Positions 1-6,293 of a stretch of 6,578 bases of DNA are shown one piece after another (the stretch's first letter is position 1; every line of letters starts with the position of its first letter). This DNA comes from an archaeon (lineage in GTDB: Archaea > Iainarchaeota > Iainarchaeia > Iainarchaeales > Iainarchaeaceae): NCBI GenBank assembly GCA_024653865.1, contig JANLHD010000173.1:1-6578 (forward strand), in the 5' to 3' direction. Position numbers and translations under genes: made by a program. The notes under the pieces are model-generated. The model was not told the DNA's origin. It ran no database searches and was given only the letters and a program-made list of their open reading frames with translations.

Positions 1-339
1 GTCCTCGAGAAAAACGCCGAACGAGTTGAGGGCCTCTAGGTAGTAATCAATCCTTGCCTTGCTTGCTGGAAGAGAGCTTTCTATCCTGAAAGTGTTTGCG
101 TCCGAGGAGTATGTGAAGGGGATTATTCTTGAATCAATTTGTTTTTCCGCCTCGTTTAGGGTCAGGTTTGAGAGGTTGTTTTGGATGTTTGAGTACTTGT
201 CCGACACCCTGCGGAATGCGTTCATTTCGCTTTGCGCATCGGAAAATTCCGATGAGTGGTCGGTTGAACTTAGGAACAGCGAAATTGTCGCCCCCAAAAG
301 AAGAACCACCATCAGGGAAAATACGACTCCGCGGGTCAT
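1..339 (-). CDS. Membrane-anchored pilin-like surface protein, 3' end cut off by the window edge
   Basis: This open frame starts at ATG 339 and runs off the left edge after 113 codons with no stop, so the C-terminus is missing. The start overlaps the stop of the upstream large gene as ATGA, and a GGAGG lies 8 nt upstream, which fixes the start. Residues 5-23 form one hydrophobic helix after MTRG, resembling the neighbours' prepilin-like starts (R-G, then VVFSL). The rest that is visible is hydrophilic and Asn/Ser-rich, with N-linked sequons (NLS, NLT), a predicted helical stretch around residues 33-70, and no cysteine. This fits an anchored protein with its bulk outside the cell. I recognise no family. 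As the fifth gene of the pilin-like operon, translationally coupled to the vWA/propeller protein, it is inferred to work with it. The reading frame is secure and the function unknown. Confidence 0.8.
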   Translation of the reverse strand, partial: MTRGVVFSLMVVLLLGATISLFLSSTDHSSEFSDAQSEMNAFRRVSDKYSNIQNNLSNLTLNEAEKQIDSRIIPFTYSSDANTFRIESSLPASKARIDYYLEALNSFGVFLED

Positions 340-3083
340 GTTTGTTGCCTCCATACCGCGTATTCGACTTCGAACACCTCTGTTGCCGGCCCGCCGTAAC
401 AGTTCACCGCATCGATGTTGTAAAGCGGGCATTCGCGCAGCGAGTTGTCGTCGTTTATGGTCGCGTAGATTACTCCTTCGTTTTCGATTGATATTCCCGT
501 ATATGCCTGGACGAAGCTTGTGCATGATGGCGTATCCGCCGAGCATAGCGCCGGAACTTCGAGTTCATTTAGGATTTCGCCCTGCGTGTCGCCAAGGTAA
601 AATCTCAGCGCGGTGGAATTCGCGTCGAGTTCTCCTATGTTTTCCACCGTTACCTCAAGGGAGACGTCGTTTCTTCCGGTTATTTCCCCAGAGGTAATGT
701 CGACAGAGAGGTCCCTTGAATTGAATGCAAGTGTTGCCGATGCGTTGAAATCAATCGAGTAAAAATTGCCGTCCGACCCCACGAAATTGAATGTCGTGCC
801 TTCCCCGGGGAATGTGAGTGCGTCTATGCCGCACACGTTGGCGTTGTCGCATGGGAAGTTCAGTACGTAAGTTACGCTCCATGGGCTGTCCGGGGTTATG
901 GAGCCCGCGCTGAAAACCAGGTTGCCGTCTCCGAATACTCCGCCGCCTGTGTCGATGATGTCTGCGCCGTTGATGACTGGCACGCTTACATTCGAGTCGT
1001 TCGCGAGTTCGCTTATCTTCGCCGCTATGATTTCATAAATGTCCTGGAGCGCATTCTGGTCACCCGCATAGTAATACTCGCCGCCGGTTGCGTCTGCAAT
1101 TGCGCGCAGTTCGATTTCGCTTGCGTCCTCCCCGAATCCTACTGTAAAAATTATTATGCCATTTGCCACGGCATCTATGGCGGCGGCTTCGGAGTCGCCT
1201 TCGTTTGACTGGCCATCGCTTAGAACAACCTGAAAGCTAAGCGCGCTGGGGTTTGCCCTTGCGGAAGTTAGTTCTGATGTTGCCGAGTATATTCCGCTTG
1301 CTATGTCCGTGCCTCCCGAGGCGGTGAGTGCATTGATTGCTGAATGGATGAGTGAAATATTCGAGGTGAGGGGCTGGTTTAGGGAGCCGGTTGTGTTGAA
1401 TGTTGATAGTGCGAGTTGGTCTGGCGGCGCGCTCCATCCATTGAAGTCCGCGAAAGTGTTTGCCGCAACCTGCGCGTTGTTTATCCGCGGCCCTGTTGCG
1501 ATTTCTATCGTCACAAATCCTATTGAGCCCGCTGTCAGGAAGGCGAACCCGTCAGAATACGCAACGTCGGCGTAGGTGTAGGGTGTTGCGAATGAATCCA
1601 TCAGGCTAATGTTGCTCGGGTCGCTGACGTCGAGAATTTGCAGGCTTGTCGAGTCCGCAACGTATGCGACGCCGTTTTCGACGTGCACGTTGTATGCATT
1701 TGACGGCGTGTTGAATGTGTCGAGAAGAACGATGTTATTGGGGTCGCCAACGTTTATTGTGGCAAGGCCGGAAGAGCCCAACGCAACGTATGCGACGTTT
1801 CCTGAAACAAAAACACCGTTCGCGCTTCCGCCGGGGTCGAGTGTGTCCGTTTCAGAAATGTTGTTTTTGTTCGAGATGTCTACAACACTCAGGCCTGAGC
1901 CCCCCCGTGCCACATAGGCGTAATTTCCCAAGACAAAAACGTCAATGCTGCCTGAGAGATTTACCCTGTCCGCGAAAGAGAGGTTCGAGGGATTTGAAGC
2001 CGAGTAAACATATAATCCTAAACTGTTGCCCCCGCCTGTGCCGTCGCCTGCCACATACACGTATCCGGAGTCCGCGAATACGCCGTATATTGTATCAAAT
2101 TGGATGTTGTCGAGAAGCTGCATTGCGGAAGGGTTGCTTATGTTATAGGAAAACAATTCATCCGTGGAGTAGGTGTCCGCAACAAATGCGTAGTCGCCAT
2201 AGCCGTGAACATCCATGTAGGTCCCGGAGTCCACTCTTTGGAATTCGGTTGGTAGGCGCGGGTTTGAGACATCAATGCTCCGCAGGCCATATGCTCCGTC
2301 GGCGAGGAATATTTCGGTTCCGCTTAGCCAGATGGCTTGCGCGCTGCTCGCATTAGAATGGCCGCTCCAGCTCATGCTTCCGCTTCTATCCATTACTATG
2401 GCAACATCCACCGGCTTTCTTACTTCTTCGGGGATTGACACGCCAAGGGTTATGGAAACGTTTTGGTCGCACACTATTGCATCGCCTGGCTCCACGGTGA
2501 GGCTGAAGTCAACCAGGATGTTCACGTCGGCAAAATGCGCCTCGGAGAAAAGCGCCCCTTCAACGCCTTTTTGGTTTTCGAATGGGAGCCAGAAGGCCTC
2601 TTCGAACTGGGCAAAGGAAACGTTGCAGTCCCCTGGCGGCTGCTTGCGCAAAAAGTACTTCGAGCCCCCCACAAAATCTTCGGGCGCGCCAAAGCCCGCC
2701 GTGCCGGTTATGATGTTCGAATCTGGAAAGCACGCCTCGAATGTCTGGCTTGCGGCGCATGCGGTTTCTTCAAGCGTGAATGAGCGCACTGTGACGTTCG
2801 CATCAAAGCCTTCGGGGAGGTTTGAGAGGAGTTCTTGCCTGAAAAGCGCGGCGGCCTGCGTGGGCGAATTGGAGTCGAGGGTTGTTACGACATAGCCAGT
2901 GTTCTCAAGCACGAACAATAGGTCCTCGGCCACATTGCTTGTTTGCATGGCTCCCAGCGCCTGATTGGAACTAAGGCCTATGAAAAAAAAGCTCGCGCTT
3001 ATGAGTATGGACACGGCTATTGCCATGTCGAGGGTGAATGCGAAGCCTTTTTCACTCGAGTTCGTAGAGCGTGAGTTTTGCAA
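336..3083 (-). CDS. Large surface protein: vWA domain with an inserted LVIVD beta-propeller
   Basis: Likely an extracellular adhesin- or sensor-like protein anchored by one N-terminal helix. From TTG 3083 it is about 915 aa. K12-G13 precede a hydrophobic helix (14-38) in a prepilin-like setting. An unrecognised exported domain follows (about 40-220, Cys 109, 118, 153, 205). The vWA domain opens at about 223-237 with the metal-site motif DRSGSM (D232, S234, S236). About seven LVIVD-type blades of 41-47 aa follow (about 250-528; recurring cores such as GNYAYVA and LQILDVSDPSN). The vWA fold then resumes (about 532-691) with SGGTD (T592) and VLSDG (D623). The C-terminus (about 789-900) is Ig/CARDB-like, with six of the ten cysteines lying between 745 and 895. 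Many N-X-S/T sequons suggest a glycosylated surface protein. It overlaps the upstream gene by 32 nt. An in-frame TTG at 3110 is possible, but GGAGG 8 nt before TTG 3083 favours the shorter form. Domain calls are confident; the ligand is unknown. Confidence 0.9.
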   Translation of the reverse strand: MQNSRSTNSSEKGFAFTLDMAIAVSILISASFFFIGLSSNQALGAMQTSNVAEDLLFVLENTGYVVTTLDSNSPTQAAALFRQELLSNLPEGFDANVTVRSFTLEETACAASQTFEACFPDSNIITGTAGFGAPEDFVGGSKYFLRKQPPGDCNVSFAQFEEAFWLPFENQKGVEGALFSEAHFADVNILVDFSLTVEPGDAIVCDQNVSITLGVSIPEEVRKPVDVAIVMDRSGSMSWSGHSNASSAQAIWLSGTEIFLADGAYGLRSIDVSNPRLPTEFQRVDSGTYMDVHGYGDYAFVADTYSTDELFSYNISNPSAMQLLDNIQFDTIYGVFADSGYVYVAGDGTGGGNSLGLYVYSASNPSNLSFADRVNLSGSIDVFVLGNYAYVARGGSGLSVVDISNKNNISETDTLDPGGSANGVFVSGNVAYVALGSSGLATINVGDPNNIVLLDTFNTPSNAYNVHVENGVAYVADSTSLQILDVSDPSNISLMDSFATPYTYADVAYSDGFAFLTAGSIGFVTIEIATGPRINNAQVAANTFADFNGWSAPPDQLALSTFNTTGSLNQPLTSNISLIHSAINALTASGGTDIASGIYSATSELTSARANPSALSFQVVLSDGQSNEGDSEAAAIDAVANGIIIFTVGFGEDASEIELRAIADATGGEYYYAGDQNALQDIYEIIAAKISELANDSNVSVPVINGADIIDTGGGVFGDGNLVFSAGSITPDSPWSVTYVLNFPCDNANVCGIDALTFPGEGTTFNFVGSDGNFYSIDFNASATLAFNSRDLSVDITSGEITGRNDVSLEVTVENIGELDANSTALRFYLGDTQGEILNELEVPALCSADTPSCTSFVQAYTGISIENEGVIYATINDDNSLRECPLYNIDAVNCYGGPATEVFEVEYAVWRQQT
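348..352 (-). promoter_or_regulatory. Shine-Dalgarno site of the last operon gene
   Basis: On the minus strand GGAGG lies 8 nt before ATG 339, inside the last codons of the large upstream gene. It favours ATG 339 over the in-frame ATG at 354, which overlaps the motif itself. Confidence 0.7.
1500..2336 (-). repeat. LVIVD-type beta-propeller repeat block inserted in the vWA domain
   Basis: This stretch encodes about seven tandem degenerate repeats of 41-47 residues. Each runs roughly V-x-V-x-G-x-x-A-Y-V-A, then G-L-x-I-x-D-V-S-D-P-x-N, then a strand ending in a small hydrophobic pair. The clearest units contain GNYAYVARGGSGL, GNVAYVALGSSGL and NGVAYVADSTSLQILDVSDP. The last unit lacks its final strand, which suggests that the first residues of the block close the ring (inference). 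It lies between the two halves of the vWA fold, with Ser/Gly/Asn-rich linkers on entry and a short ATGPR exit. Confidence 0.85.
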
Positions 3084-3552
3084 TTGCCTCGCCTCCTTTG
3101 TATTCCACAATTCTCGAGAGCACTATTTTTGTTGCGTCCCCTCCGGGTGCAAGGCCGGCGCTTGAGTTGTCTATTCCATCGAATTCAAAGAAAAAATCGT
3201 ATCTTCCGATGTTCATTTTTTGCCTGAGCAGTTCATAATCGGCTGAGTGGTTCGAGAATGCTGCGAGTTTTTGCTCAAAGAGCCGCCTGTCCGATATGGC
3301 AAGGCCTGGCCTGTTGAGGTCGCCAATTTCTAGGGTTTCCCAGCCAGATGGCTCGCCGGGGCTTCTGGCAAGGTAGTCGAGCGCGTAATCGGCCTTTATT
3401 CGCATTTCCAAAAAATCCGCATCGCCCCTAACTTGCGCGTCGCGTTCCTGGAACTGCGTTGCGATGAAAAACCAGGCGACAACAAAAATGAGCACAGCGA
3501 GGGCAAAGTCCATGAGCACTGCCTGGGCTTTTTGGCTAGATGTTTTCAACAA
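3052..3552 (-). CDS. Pilin-like membrane-anchored protein (third gene of operon)
   Basis: A 166-aa protein with a short polar N-terminus (K3, K8), then one hydrophobic helix (about 16-31, ALAVLIFVVAWFF), then a soluble, cysteine-free, presumably extracytoplasmic region. The start resembles a class III prepilin signal (KA, then QAVLMD), but the acidic residue is Asp one position later than the usual Glu. The helix is followed by a charged amphipathic stretch (QERDAQVRGDADFLEMRIKA). Then comes an ARSPGEPSGWETL segment of a kind I associate with archaeal pilin-like proteins, and C-terminal strands. Two tandem TTG codons (3552, 3549) are the only plausible starts, because an in-frame TGA lies two codons upstream. 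GGTGAT is better spaced for 3549 than for 3552. It overlaps the upstream gene by 17 nt and the downstream gene by 32 nt. Likely a minor pilin or pseudopilin; no family name is certain. Confidence 0.85.
   Translation of the reverse strand: MLKTSSQKAQAVLMDFALAVLIFVVAWFFIATQFQERDAQVRGDADFLEMRIKADYALDYLARSPGEPSGWETLEIGDLNRPGLAISDRRLFEQKLAAFSNHSADYELLRQKMNIGRYDFFFEFDGIDNSSAGLAPGGDATKIVLSRIVEYKGGEAIAKLTLYELE
3092..3096 (-). promoter_or_regulatory. Shine-Dalgarno site that decides the start of the vWA/propeller gene
   Basis: GGAGG, in the context AAGGAGGCGA on the minus strand, lies 8 nt before TTG 3083. The alternative TTG at 3110 lies upstream of this motif and has no comparable site that I can see, so the later TTG is preferred. 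The protein then starts at LQNSRSTNSS. Confidence 0.65.
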
Positions 3553-3901
3553 AAATCACCCCGCCAATTTTTTCCACCAAAACAGTTCCGCTTGAAAGCT
3601 CCGAGTTTATATGGGTGCCTTCAATGTAGCAAAAGCTTTTTTGGAAACTGATTGTGGACCCTGTTATGTTGGCGTCGAAATAGAGTGTTGTTTCAATTGA
3701 GGCGTTTCCTTGCGTGGCAAGCACCGCGCTGATTGCTGACTGGAGTTTTGTGCACTCAATTGCCTGCCTTGAGTCCTCTGCCGAGAACCTCGCCGCCTCG
3801 TTGAAGTTTCCGAGCTGCAAATAAACGAACAAAAGCAGCAAGAGAACCCCTAGAAATGCGATTACTGTTTCGACCGCGACCTGCGCCCTAGCACTAGCCA
3901 A
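3536..3901 (-). CDS. Small class III-signal (type IV pilin-like) protein
   Basis: A 121-aa protein with the archaeal class III signal pattern right at the N-terminus: MASARA, then Q7-V-A-V-E11, then a long hydrophobic helix (about 12-30). Cleavage by an EppA/PibD-type prepilin peptidase would be expected just before Q7. The Glu five residues into the mature protein is the residue pilins use for assembly. The helix continues into an amphipathic segment (GNFNEAARFSAEDSRQAIE), then a small beta-rich domain with C50 and C91, which could form a disulfide, and sequons NAS and NIT. TTG is the only possible start: an in-frame TAG lies immediately upstream and no other start codon occurs before the signal. 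A weak GGTGG lies 6 nt upstream. It overlaps the first pilin gene by 8 nt. Best read as a minor pilin. Confidence 0.87.
   Translation of the reverse strand: MASARAQVAVETVIAFLGVLLLLLFVYLQLGNFNEAARFSAEDSRQAIECTKLQSAISAVLATQGNASIETTLYFDANITGSTISFQKSFCYIEGTHINSELSSGTVLVEKIGGVIFVENI
3555..3560 (-). promoter_or_regulatory. Shine-Dalgarno-like GGTGAT before tandem TTG starts
   Basis: GGTGAT on the minus strand matches the 3' part of the archaeal SD consensus GGAGGTGAT. It ends 5 nt before TTG 3549 and 2 nt before TTG 3552, so initiation at 3549 is somewhat more likely. It lies within the last codons of the upstream gene, consistent with coupled translation. Confidence 0.5.
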
Positions 3902-4340
3902 CTATATCCACCGCCACGTTCCCGTCGGAAAAGGTGGCCTTGAGCTTGTGCCTGCCAGGCCCTGCCGCAATTGTCGAGGGGGTTAGGCTTGGTTTTGTGT
4001 ACGCAAACACATCGCTGATTCCGGCGCCTGTTTCTATTCGTATTGTGACGCTTTTTTGGGAGACGCTAAATGATTCCATGTTGTTTGGCAATTGGACTTC
4101 GAAAAAAACCGTGCTGCCCTCGCCGTAGGATGCGACTATGTTTGCGTGGTTAGCCACCTGGGTAACTGCAGAATCCGCGGTTGCGAATGCGGAGGATTCG
4201 TTGAAGGACCAGAGCGAAAATCCGAACAAGACCCCTGCAACAATGAGCGAGAATGCAAGAAGGATTAGGTACTCGATGGAAACCTGCGCACGCCTTCCCG
4301 GGCGTGAGCGCAAGCTGGGGGTTGGTATTTTTTTGGCCAC
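3894..4340 (-). CDS. Archaeal type IV pilin-like protein with canonical class III signal peptide
   Basis: A 148-aa protein and the first gene of the operon. The basic leader (residues 1-18, ending GRRA) is followed by Q19-V-S-I-E23-Y and a hydrophobic helix to about residue 44. This is the textbook class III signal (QXSXEXXXL) cut by an archaeal prepilin peptidase just before the Gln. The mature head (about 45-148) is cysteine-free and beta-rich, with a GEGSTVFFEVQLPNN segment and a C-terminal GPGRHKLKATF...VAVDIVG hairpin, as in many small archaeal pilins. GTG 4340 is the first start codon after an in-frame TAG. A TATA-like element sits about 23-26 nt upstream, so the transcript is probably leaderless or nearly so. 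A downstream TTG (codon 10) is less likely. Probably the pilin that founds or leads this complex; whether it is a major or minor subunit cannot be seen. Confidence 0.92.
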   Translation of the reverse strand: MAKKIPTPSLRSRPGRRAQVSIEYLILLAFSLIVAGVLFGFSLWSFNESSAFATADSAVTQVANHANIVASYGEGSTVFFEVQLPNNMESFSVSQKSVTIRIETGAGISDVFAYTKPSLTPSTIAAGPGRHKLKATFSDGNVAVDIVG

Positions 4341-4440: not shown

Positions 4441-4501
4441 GGCAAAATGGGGTAAAGTGCCTCAAATTGGCAGTACTAGGGGTTTTTTTGCAAAAGGAAG
4501 G

Positions 4502-4508
4502 TTTAAGA
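4502..4508 (+). promoter_or_regulatory. Putative TATA box of the transglutaminase-like gene
   Basis: TTTAAGA, preceded by a purine-rich AAAAGGAAGG segment, is centred about 22-28 nt before the in-frame ATGs at 4527 and 4533. This matches a leaderless archaeal promoter and argues that the in-frame TTG at 4467, upstream of the box, is not the start. Confidence 0.5.
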
Positions 4509-4526
4509 GCAATTATCCAGGCAATT

Positions 4527-5345
4527 ATGTATATGTTTGAGGTTCCTGAGGACCAGGGTTTGAGGAGGTTCTCCTCGGAAAAATTCCTTCTGCGCAACAT
4601 AAATGCGCTTGAGCGCAGCCTACTTGATGAAAATGACGTGGAGAAAAAGCAGGATATTGTGGTGCAGCTCGAGGCATTGAAGCACGAGCTCTCAAGGCTC
4701 TCGGGCCCTGGCAGTTCGGAGTCTTCAGGCGAGAAGCTAGGCGAGGATGGCAAAATTGCGGGGAGCCGTGAAAAATTGTTCAGGCTTCTTCTGGAGCGCC
4801 ACGCGAGGCTCATAGGGGACGAGGAAACAAGGACCGTGGGCGAAATTAAGGCGATGGTCACCAAAGACGACCTCACGGTGCAGGCACTTGCCGGCTCTTT
4901 TATGGCGGAGAATTATGTTTTTGAGAAGGATTATTTGCATGCGGCGCAGAAGGCTTTCGATTATGTGAAAAATGAAATCGGGTTTGTTGACGCGAACCTG
5001 AACATATCTTTTTGGCTGACGGCAAAGGAAATCGTGGCAAATAAGCTAGGGGATGACGAGGACCAGGCCGTGCTTTTGTGTTCGCTCTTGTACGCACTCG
5101 GTGATGAAAATGCCGAGGTCGTGGTTGCGGAGCTCGAGGACGCGTCCGCGCATGCATTTGTTCTCACAAATTTTGGCGGGAAAACCATTATTCTTGACCC
5201 AATCCAAAACATTGATTTTCGAAGATACTTCGGGGAAAAGAGTGCGGTTCTTTCCAAGTACTCCTACAGGGGAAGCAAAATCAGGCGGTTTATTTTCCGG
5301 TTCAACAATTCGAACTACGAGCAGTTTGAAAATTCAGAGTTTTGA
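4527..5345 (+). CDS. Transglutaminase-like fold protein lacking the catalytic Cys
   Basis: A 272-aa protein with no signal peptide or membrane helix, so probably cytoplasmic. Residues 1-60 are charged and helical, 61-80 a Ser/Gly-rich linker, 81-120 helical. From about 125 to 230 it resembles the transglutaminase-like (papain-fold) superfamily: HAAQKAFDYVKNEIGF, then W163 and the segment leading to G175-DDEDQAVLLCSLLYALG, then AHAFVL (H209) and IILDP (D224). Family members usually read GDCEDQA-LL-SLL-ALG at the first motif. Here the catalytic Cys position is Asp (D177, codon GAC), while the His and Asp of the triad remain. C185, eight residues later in the same helix, is unlikely to substitute. 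ATG 4527 (or 4533) is chosen because a TATA-like box lies just upstream; TTG 4467 would add 20 residues lacking support. It ends 12 bp inside the convergent kinase gene. The fold is fairly sure, loss of activity inferred, role unknown. Confidence 0.82.
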   Translation: MYMFEVPEDQGLRRFSSEKFLLRNINALERSLLDENDVEKKQDIVVQLEALKHELSRLSGPGSSESSGEKLGEDGKIAGSREKLFRLLLERHARLIGDEETRTVGEIKAMVTKDDLTVQALAGSFMAENYVFEKDYLHAAQKAFDYVKNEIGFVDANLNISFWLTAKEIVANKLGDDEDQAVLLCSLLYALGDENAEVVVAELEDASAHAFVLTNFGGKTIILDPIQNIDFRRYFGEKSAVLSKYSYRGSKIRRFIFRFNNSNYEQFENSEF

Positions 5346-6293
5346 GGGTTTTGCAAAACTCCCTTTTCCGTATTTTTTTATGAAAGCCCCAATTTTTTGG
5401 GGGGAGAGCAAAACGTTTTTTGTGCCCAGCTCGAGTATCACAGAATTTGCGTTCGCCGTTCCCCACAGTAGAGCATCTGGCATGCTTTTGCCCTTGATTA
5501 TTGCCGATACAAAACCCGACCCGAATGCGTCCCCCGCGCCGGTTGCATCAACCGGGGTTACCTTAAAGCTCGGGACCGAATAAATGAGCTCTCCGTTTGT
5601 TGCGTGGCTGCCGTGGGCGCCTTCCGTGATGACGACGTTGTTTGCAAGCGCCAGCAGGTGCTTTAGGTTCCTGTGGATGTCCCCCGAGCCCGTGAGTTTT
5701 ATCGCCTCCTCCTTGTTCAAAAGCAGCACTTCGAGGCGCCCGAAAATTTCTTGTATCCGCCCCTTTCCGAGGGCGAGTTCGGCCTGGCCCGGGTTGAATG
5801 CTATTTTCATTTTGCTTTTTTTTGCGTGGCTCGCGAGCTTTTTTAGCAGGGGAATGTTTCCGTGGAGCGAGGAGATGTAGAGCCATTTGGAATTGAGTTT
5901 TTTTGTGTCAAGGGTTTTTCCAAGGCTTGCCGCCATTTTCATGTAGCAAAGGACAACGCGGTCCCTGCCAAAGCCGGTCAAAATTACGGAGTAACTGGTT
6001 TTTTTCCCTTTCTTTATTTCCGCCAGTGAGGTTGATACTCCCTCTTCGCGAAGGTTTTGGAGGACGCTTTTTCCGGATTCGTCGTCGCCAATTGCGCATA
6101 GCGCCGCTGCCTTGAACCCCATTCTTGCAAAGGCAACGGATGTATTGGTTGCCCCGCCGCCGGTGAAGTAGTTCATCTCGTTTATTTCGACCTTTGTGCC
6201 GGGGACGAACACGAATCGCTCGCCCAAATATTTGGGGGGGATGTGGACAAATACGTCCTCGGTTGCGGAGCCAACGGAAATTATGTCAAACAT
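5334..6293 (-). CDS. PfkB-family (ribokinase-like) sugar or nucleoside kinase
   Basis: A 319-aa cytoplasmic kinase of full family length that transfers a phosphate to a sugar, nucleoside or related alcohol. The N-terminus (MFDIISVGSATEDVFV) gives the first beta strand, with D13 where ribokinases contact substrate. GGGATNTSVAFARMG (45-59) is the first PfkB signature and substrate loop. NKEE (193-196) is the NxxE metal/phosphate motif. DATGAGDAFGSGF (249-261) is the second signature, with the anion hole and catalytic base D255. The NPGQ motif (167-170) and GRDRVVL (109-115) are of the type seen in archaeal and CPR/DPANN PfkB proteins. Substrate specificity (ribose, fructose phosphate, adenosine and so on) cannot be read from sequence alone. 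ATG 6293 is well supported by a TATA-like box 26-27 nt upstream. The 3' end overlaps the convergent transglutaminase-like gene by 12 bp. Confidence 0.95.
   Translation of the reverse strand: MFDIISVGSATEDVFVHIPPKYLGERFVFVPGTKVEINEMNYFTGGGATNTSVAFARMGFKAAALCAIGDDESGKSVLQNLREEGVSTSLAEIKKGKKTSYSVILTGFGRDRVVLCYMKMAASLGKTLDTKKLNSKWLYISSLHGNIPLLKKLASHAKKSKMKIAFNPGQAELALGKGRIQEIFGRLEVLLLNKEEAIKLTGSGDIHRNLKHLLALANNVVITEGAHGSHATNGELIYSVPSFKVTPVDATGAGDAFGSGFVSAIIKGKSMPDALLWGTANANSVILELGTKNVLLSPQKIGAFIKKYGKGSFAKPSKL

Follow-up and report, generated by a model that had tools for sequence, protein, structure and literature searches.

The 6.6 kb window, by which we mean the whole stretch of DNA analysed here, is the entire contig of a draft archaeal assembly (0.99 Mb, 80.5% complete) and carries on its minus strand a gene (336..3083) encoding a pilin-like protein with a von Willebrand factor A (vWA) domain. 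Within this domain, a propeller of LVIVD repeats is nested between the strand bearing the metal-binding DxSxS motif and helix 1, so that the nesting known from integrin alpha chains is reversed, as the initial annotation had proposed. Judging from the sequences of relatives, this arrangement is one case of a larger pattern, a variable slot in the metal loop, and the history of the propeller differs from that of the scaffold that carries it. On balance, we favour the view that the protein is a subunit at the tip of a filament resembling a type IV pilus, and that its vWA adhesion domain holds, right behind the DxSxS motif, a module that can be exchanged.

A vWA domain split by an LVIVD propeller

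The vWA domain, like the whole gene, is encoded on the minus strand. It opens with strand 1 and the DRSGSM metal motif (residues 234-247; 2370..2411), is interrupted by the propeller in the strand 1-helix 1 loop (residues 248-538; 1497..2369; seven blades predicted) and resumes from helix 1 on (residues 539-703; 1002..1496). The Pfam LVIVD family (PF08309) matched five stretches with 95.7 bits (cut-off 20.2). The Pfam VWA profile gave 63.7 bits with the rear part alone and 76.5 bits with the flanks joined (profile positions 1-173 of 174; cut-off 23.8), and in P0056, a natural insert-free relative, the vWA domain is unbroken. The metal-site residues D241, S243, S245, T601 (in SGGTD; 1308..1310) and D632 (in VLSDG; 1215..1217) are all present, confirming the earlier claim that the site is kept across the insertion. 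vWA proteins with LVIVD repeats between DxSxS and helix 1 proved to be numerous, with many relatives in many assemblies.

Structural modeling predicts a closed seven-bladed propeller for residues 248-538 and a single vWA fold spanning the insert. Alignment of the window model with VIA-align matched mostly propellers and barely probed the vWA part; the span of the vWA fold was seen on the model of the relative P0050. Because it is inserted at the metal loop in the chain, the propeller should adjoin the metal site. A sequence search of solved structures with the window protein returned six weak matches, the best of them a vWA domain (E 0.0032), and a scan of the genome contigs with this protein as the single query found no relative.

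Upstream of the vWA domain, a conserved pilin-like hydrophobic N-terminal helix (residues 27-47; 2970..3032), recognizable in both sequence and model, lies behind the motif KGFAFTLD and is followed by an N-terminal domain delimited in the model (residues 54-225; 2436..2951), for which a Pfam search gave no match. The chain ends in a beta-rich part (339..1001) with strands in the model and a weak CARDB match (E 1e-4; 22.9 bits, cut-off 22.7). The stop codon occupies 336-338 and the likely start is a TTG at 3083; the open frame extends back to a TTG at 3110, and a start near 3083 matches the beginning of many homologues, including P0001 (915 aa), which starts at that position.

Contents of the metal loop and their exchange

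A protein search at E <=1e-3 gave 209 matches. Among the 120 matches listed, 61 (P0001-P0062 minus P0061) were used and the 59 others, most of them LVIVD proteins for which no VWA domain was listed, were set aside. Further searches added P0121 and P0122-P0148 (P0149 and P0150 were left out). Fetched loci, 40 in all and picked for their match to the vWA protein, supplied 39 vWA frames of at least 450 aa, of which 11 duplicated P sequences and 28 were added, giving 117 sequences; L051_4, L074_4, L071_0, P0144 and P0148 were then dropped as truncated or outside, leaving 112. Inserts were classified by length and, where Pfam results were available, by these as well, and the term beta-rich derives from one model (P0050).

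A propeller-type insert of 288-305 aa occupies the strand 1-helix 1 loop in 35 of the 112 sequences, and in another 35 a longer insert combines LVIVD repeats with further sequence. One small beta-rich module is found in 17 sequences and a double-length one in 4; two carry a propeller with LamG, two LamG without LVIVD, and seven an insert assigned to none of these kinds. The loop is empty in eight in-family sequences, plus two of the outgroup. Among the longer inserts, DUF4082 was matched above the cut-off in P0048 and L058 and more weakly in P0020, L055, L066_3 and L022, and Pfam returned no DUF4082 match in those of P0032, P0041 and L046; the extra stretch of P0020 and P0032 is placed between propeller blades. 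Comparison of the small beta-rich insert by sequence with solved structures yielded nothing significant (two matches, best E 0.27).

The gene neighbourhood accompanies these different inserts. In the window, five pilin-like genes, all on the minus strand, form an operon (pil4, pil3, pil2, the vWA gene and a downstream gene) that is found across one archaeal order, several relatives being named Candidatus Diapherotrites by their sources, and the host probably belongs to that group. Across the fetched loci, pil4 and pil2 lie beside the vWA gene in 31 of 40, all five genes are present in 24, and the divergent neighbour tgl likewise in 24. The nine loci that lack pil4 and pil2 comprise five truncated by a contig end or lying on short contigs, three from outside the order and one (L067) that falls under neither heading. 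Given these shared neighbours, the locus is orthologous by synteny while the content of the slot differs.

A scaffold tree of the 112 sequences was inferred with the insert columns removed, using a quick search and support from the Shimodaira-Hasegawa-like approximate likelihood ratio test (SH-aLRT) only. The nine slot classes require at least 25 changes on this tree, against a mean of 63.1 when shuffled, and a value as low was reached in none of 200 shuffles; the minimum is 19 changes without the unknown and outgroup sequences. Thus, slot content appears to be inherited for a while but often changed. Well-supported neighbours with different contents include P0034 (double module) with P0026 and P0142 (propeller), P0028 (small module) with seven insertless sequences, and L055_30 (propeller type) with P0143 (small module). 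In approximately unbiased (AU) tests on 34 propeller-bearing sequences, a 15-member scaffold clade including the window protein was rejected by the cassette data (p-AU 0.011), and a 13-member cassette clade including it was rejected by the scaffold data (p-AU 2e-89; 3e-76 when the long sequence P0145 was omitted). The window propeller has its closest counterpart in P0010 (55.0%), the window scaffold in P0002 (60.0%). Furthermore, W or Y stands two residues past SGSM in 70 of 72 LVIVD-bearing sequences (62 by pattern and 8 more by eye; P0026 and P0142 carry L) versus none of 30 other insert-bearing ones, which suggests that the junction moves together with the module.

Some observations concern single loci or other insertion points. 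Two operon copies lie side by side in L066, and the loop encoded by one vWA gene holds a propeller-type insert, that encoded by the second, domains of LamG and Sialidase-N-like type; tandem pilin operon copies also occur in L059, L061 and L065, partly cut by the fetched stretch. P0041, P0048, L058_100 and P0139 bear an extra ~150-170 aa in another loop of the vWA domain, which runs from the helix following SGGT to the strand preceding SDG/GDG and should lie at the vWA end opposite the metal site; by eye, this stretch in P0041 and P0048 resembles the domain inside the propeller. The distant vWA protein L070 (G093, of the same domain of life and outside the order) has ~113 aa separating DCSGSM from helix 1, and the slot may therefore exist elsewhere too.

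The metal site and a possible role at a pilus tip

Of 102 insert-bearing sequences, 99 retain all five metal-site residues, the exceptions being L063_11 and L064_34, which lack the Thr, and P0055, a sequence named partial, with Ala in the first Asp column. All eight in-family insertless sequences instead show the pattern D, S, P, N, D, having lost the second Ser and the Thr. The joint loss within the family, together with retention of the site alongside very different inserts, speaks for some coupling of insert and metal site. Since the outgroup vWA domains combine an intact site with no insert, an ancestor that was insertless and metal-competent is plausible. A perfect rule of no insert, no metal site was rejected, being broken by the outgroup sequences P0146 and P0147 and partly by the in-family L063 and L064. 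In the latter two, an insert of ~155 aa coexists with a replaced metal-site Thr, and they possibly represent an intermediate of metal-site loss.

We infer membership of a filament, a position at its tip, ligand binding by the module and cooperation between module and metal site. The pilin-like N-terminus would place the vWA protein in the filament, probably at the tip because the protein is bulky. The module would supply or sharpen binding to a partner, a glycan or a protein on another cell, and the metal site would cooperate with it, either by contributing to a composite binding surface or by keeping the ligand bound under load. Swapping modules would then give the pilus a new target with the scaffold unchanged. 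The pilus reading draws support from the N-termini of the five genes, pilin-like by eye, and from the genome, in which T2SSE has four matches and T2SSF six. Foldseek adds weak support: its matches to the window model include the pilus-tip proteins PitA and Mfa5 (root-mean-square deviation, rmsd, 11 and 26). A bulky module behind the pilin-like part, namely the vWA domain with its propeller, is present.

In a fuller and more tentative form of this proposal, which we hold to be possible, the metal loop would be a tool-changing slot on an archaeal pilus, with propellers, lectins, small beta-rich and nested modules swapped by recombination at one orthologous locus, and with metal site and module forming one grip that is kept or lost together; it would be the archaeal pilus counterpart of receptor-binding-protein swapping. 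Module swapping would change what the cells of these uncultured archaea can grip. If the adhesive role is true, small-genome archaea could retarget a pilus by changing one metal-loop module with no rebuild, modular pilins would extend to archaea with a deeper, domain-in-domain modularity, and the relatives would provide a natural insert series for testing how a metal ion-dependent adhesion site (MIDAS) cooperates with neighbouring domains.

Several points weigh against these proposals. The AU-tested clades were picked after the trees had been inspected, and the trees are quick searches without bootstrap. Metal loss in the insertless sequences amounts to only two in-family events on the tree, and three independent pairs are available when the outgroup is included, of which two agree and one shows no difference; with three pairs a sign test is unable to reach 0.05, so the link between insert and metal site is not significant. 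In the outgroup, P0146 (named Micrarchaeota) and P0147 combine an intact metal site with an empty loop, and L063 and L064 have an insert yet no Thr. Diversifying selection on the propeller was considered and is unsupported: over 33 sequences, mean identity is 39% in the propeller, 54% in the vWA domain and 34% in the N-terminal domain, and the propeller, more variable than the vWA domain but less so than the N-terminal domain, therefore gives no special sign of it. The N-terminus of the vWA protein gave no match to the Pfam class III signal (PF04021), and pil4 scored under the cut-off (21.4 versus 23.7 bits). A literature search turned up no binding, metal or pilus data on this protein family.

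The position of the insert at the metal loop and the coincidence of in-family insert loss with metal-site loss would also fit an internal regulator that lies on top of the metal site as its gate, in a manner loosely recalling integrins, and does not itself bind a partner; in RrgA, GBS104 and Mfa5, extra loops close over the MIDAS cleft like a lid (PMC7835359). However, a specific gating contact is unlikely to outlast exchange for unrelated modules, and the inserts of related vWA domains range from propellers through small beta-rich modules to the LamG type, so that we regard such a regulator as unlikely. It also appears improbable to us that the protein and its operon build some surface complex other than a pilus, or a pseudopilus for secretion, rather than an adhesive pilus tip: the Pfam search found no pilus assembly gene in the window, the class III signal match is weak, and the matches to an ATPase and to TadC-type proteins are located on other contigs, but five genes have pilin-like N-termini and the Foldseek matches include PitA and Mfa5, albeit at high rmsd. 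Propeller termini lie close together, which makes insertion structurally cheap, and this, together with the intact sites of the insertless P0146 and P0147, would suit an insert that is passive bulk, a spacer or shield in an exposed loop, with the metal site alone binding the ligand. Filler would not be expected to show repeated swaps of unrelated modules, lectin-type ones included, or joint loss with the metal site, and we give this explanation little credence. Misassembly or read-through of two separate domains, conceivable given a draft assembly and a contig of 6.6 kb, can be practically dismissed because the arrangement recurs in many other assemblies and the VWA profile is completed across the insert.

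Known vWA adhesins and the surrounding locus

PilB of S. sanguinis, whose vWA domain binds Mg/Mn and human proteins and has a demonstrated role in adhesion, shares with the window protein a pilin N-terminus and a vWA domain with a MIDAS, flanked in PilB by two arms; a second modular pilin of that species, PilC, bears a lectin-type module (PMC8179133). PilB, however, is bacterial and its arms are small, and the accessible part of that paper mentions no complete, exchangeable domain within the DxSxS loop, the place at which the archaeal protein has a propeller and the slot varies among relatives. As far as sequences tell, a pilin-like vWA protein with a cassette slot in its metal loop appears to be a new variation on vWA modular pilins such as PilB. 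RrgA, GBS104 and Mfa5 are pilus-tip vWA proteins with extra segments beside the MIDAS (PMC7835359), and the fold of the P0050 model matches Mfa5. They belong to other pilus types, and their arms are placed differently: in the text available, ARM2 (98-123 residues) connects strand 4 with helix 4 and ARM1 (38 residues) interrupts a strand, whereas the archaeal insert is a domain in the strand 1-helix 1 loop; in the window model, strand 624-631 is joined to helix 640-649 by a short loop with no arm of this type.

Integrin alpha chains with an alpha-I domain also nest a vWA domain and a seven-bladed propeller one in the other, but there the vWA domain lies between blades 2 and 3 of an FG-GAP propeller (PMC3192720), whereas the archaeal nesting is the reverse and the blades are of LVIVD type. 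The pilus-tip proteins PilY1/PilC contain a propeller, plus a vWA domain in P. aeruginosa, and present variable modules on a fixed carrier; they differ in not being pilins and in having a C-terminal propeller of another family (IPR008707) (PMC8179133). In the window protein, with its mid-chain LVIVD propeller, Pfam gave no match to the PilC-type propeller up to E 1. The Bdellovibrio MIDAS adhesin Bd0875 has a cap above the metal site that its authors infer to set partner choice; its main cap (residues 143-176) is far smaller than the propeller, and it is described as a lipobox protein (PMC11003981). A census of archaeal type IV pili gives the role of pilus adhesin to DUF2341 proteins and that of regulator to vWA proteins, and the word propeller is absent from its accessible text (PMC4858521). 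Literature on LVIVD and von Willebrand domains, in the parts accessible and with most subscription journals outside coverage, did not report a vWA-nested propeller, and a search joining Diapherotrites and von Willebrand, with the same coverage, found nothing.

The other genes of the operon, all on the minus strand, bear labels coined in this analysis (pil4, pil3, pil2 and down; likewise tgl). The syntenic pil4 (RAQVSIEYLILL; 3894..4340) gave the Class_IIIsignal match mentioned above (E 2.4e-4). Next come pil3 (RAQVAVETV; 3536..3901), pilin-like by sequence, with a weak ArlF match (E 0.0094), and pil2 (KAQAVLMDFALAVL; 3052..3552), also pilin-like by sequence; both are syntenic. The pilin-like downstream gene (MTRGVVFSLMVVLLLG; 1..339) is incomplete at the contig end, and its counterparts in syntenic loci mostly encode 275-425 aa, one reaching 713 aa. 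Divergent from the operon lies tgl (4467..5345, plus strand), a transglutaminase/CEP76-peptidase-like gene, and beside it a pfkB-type kinase gene (5334..6293, minus strand).
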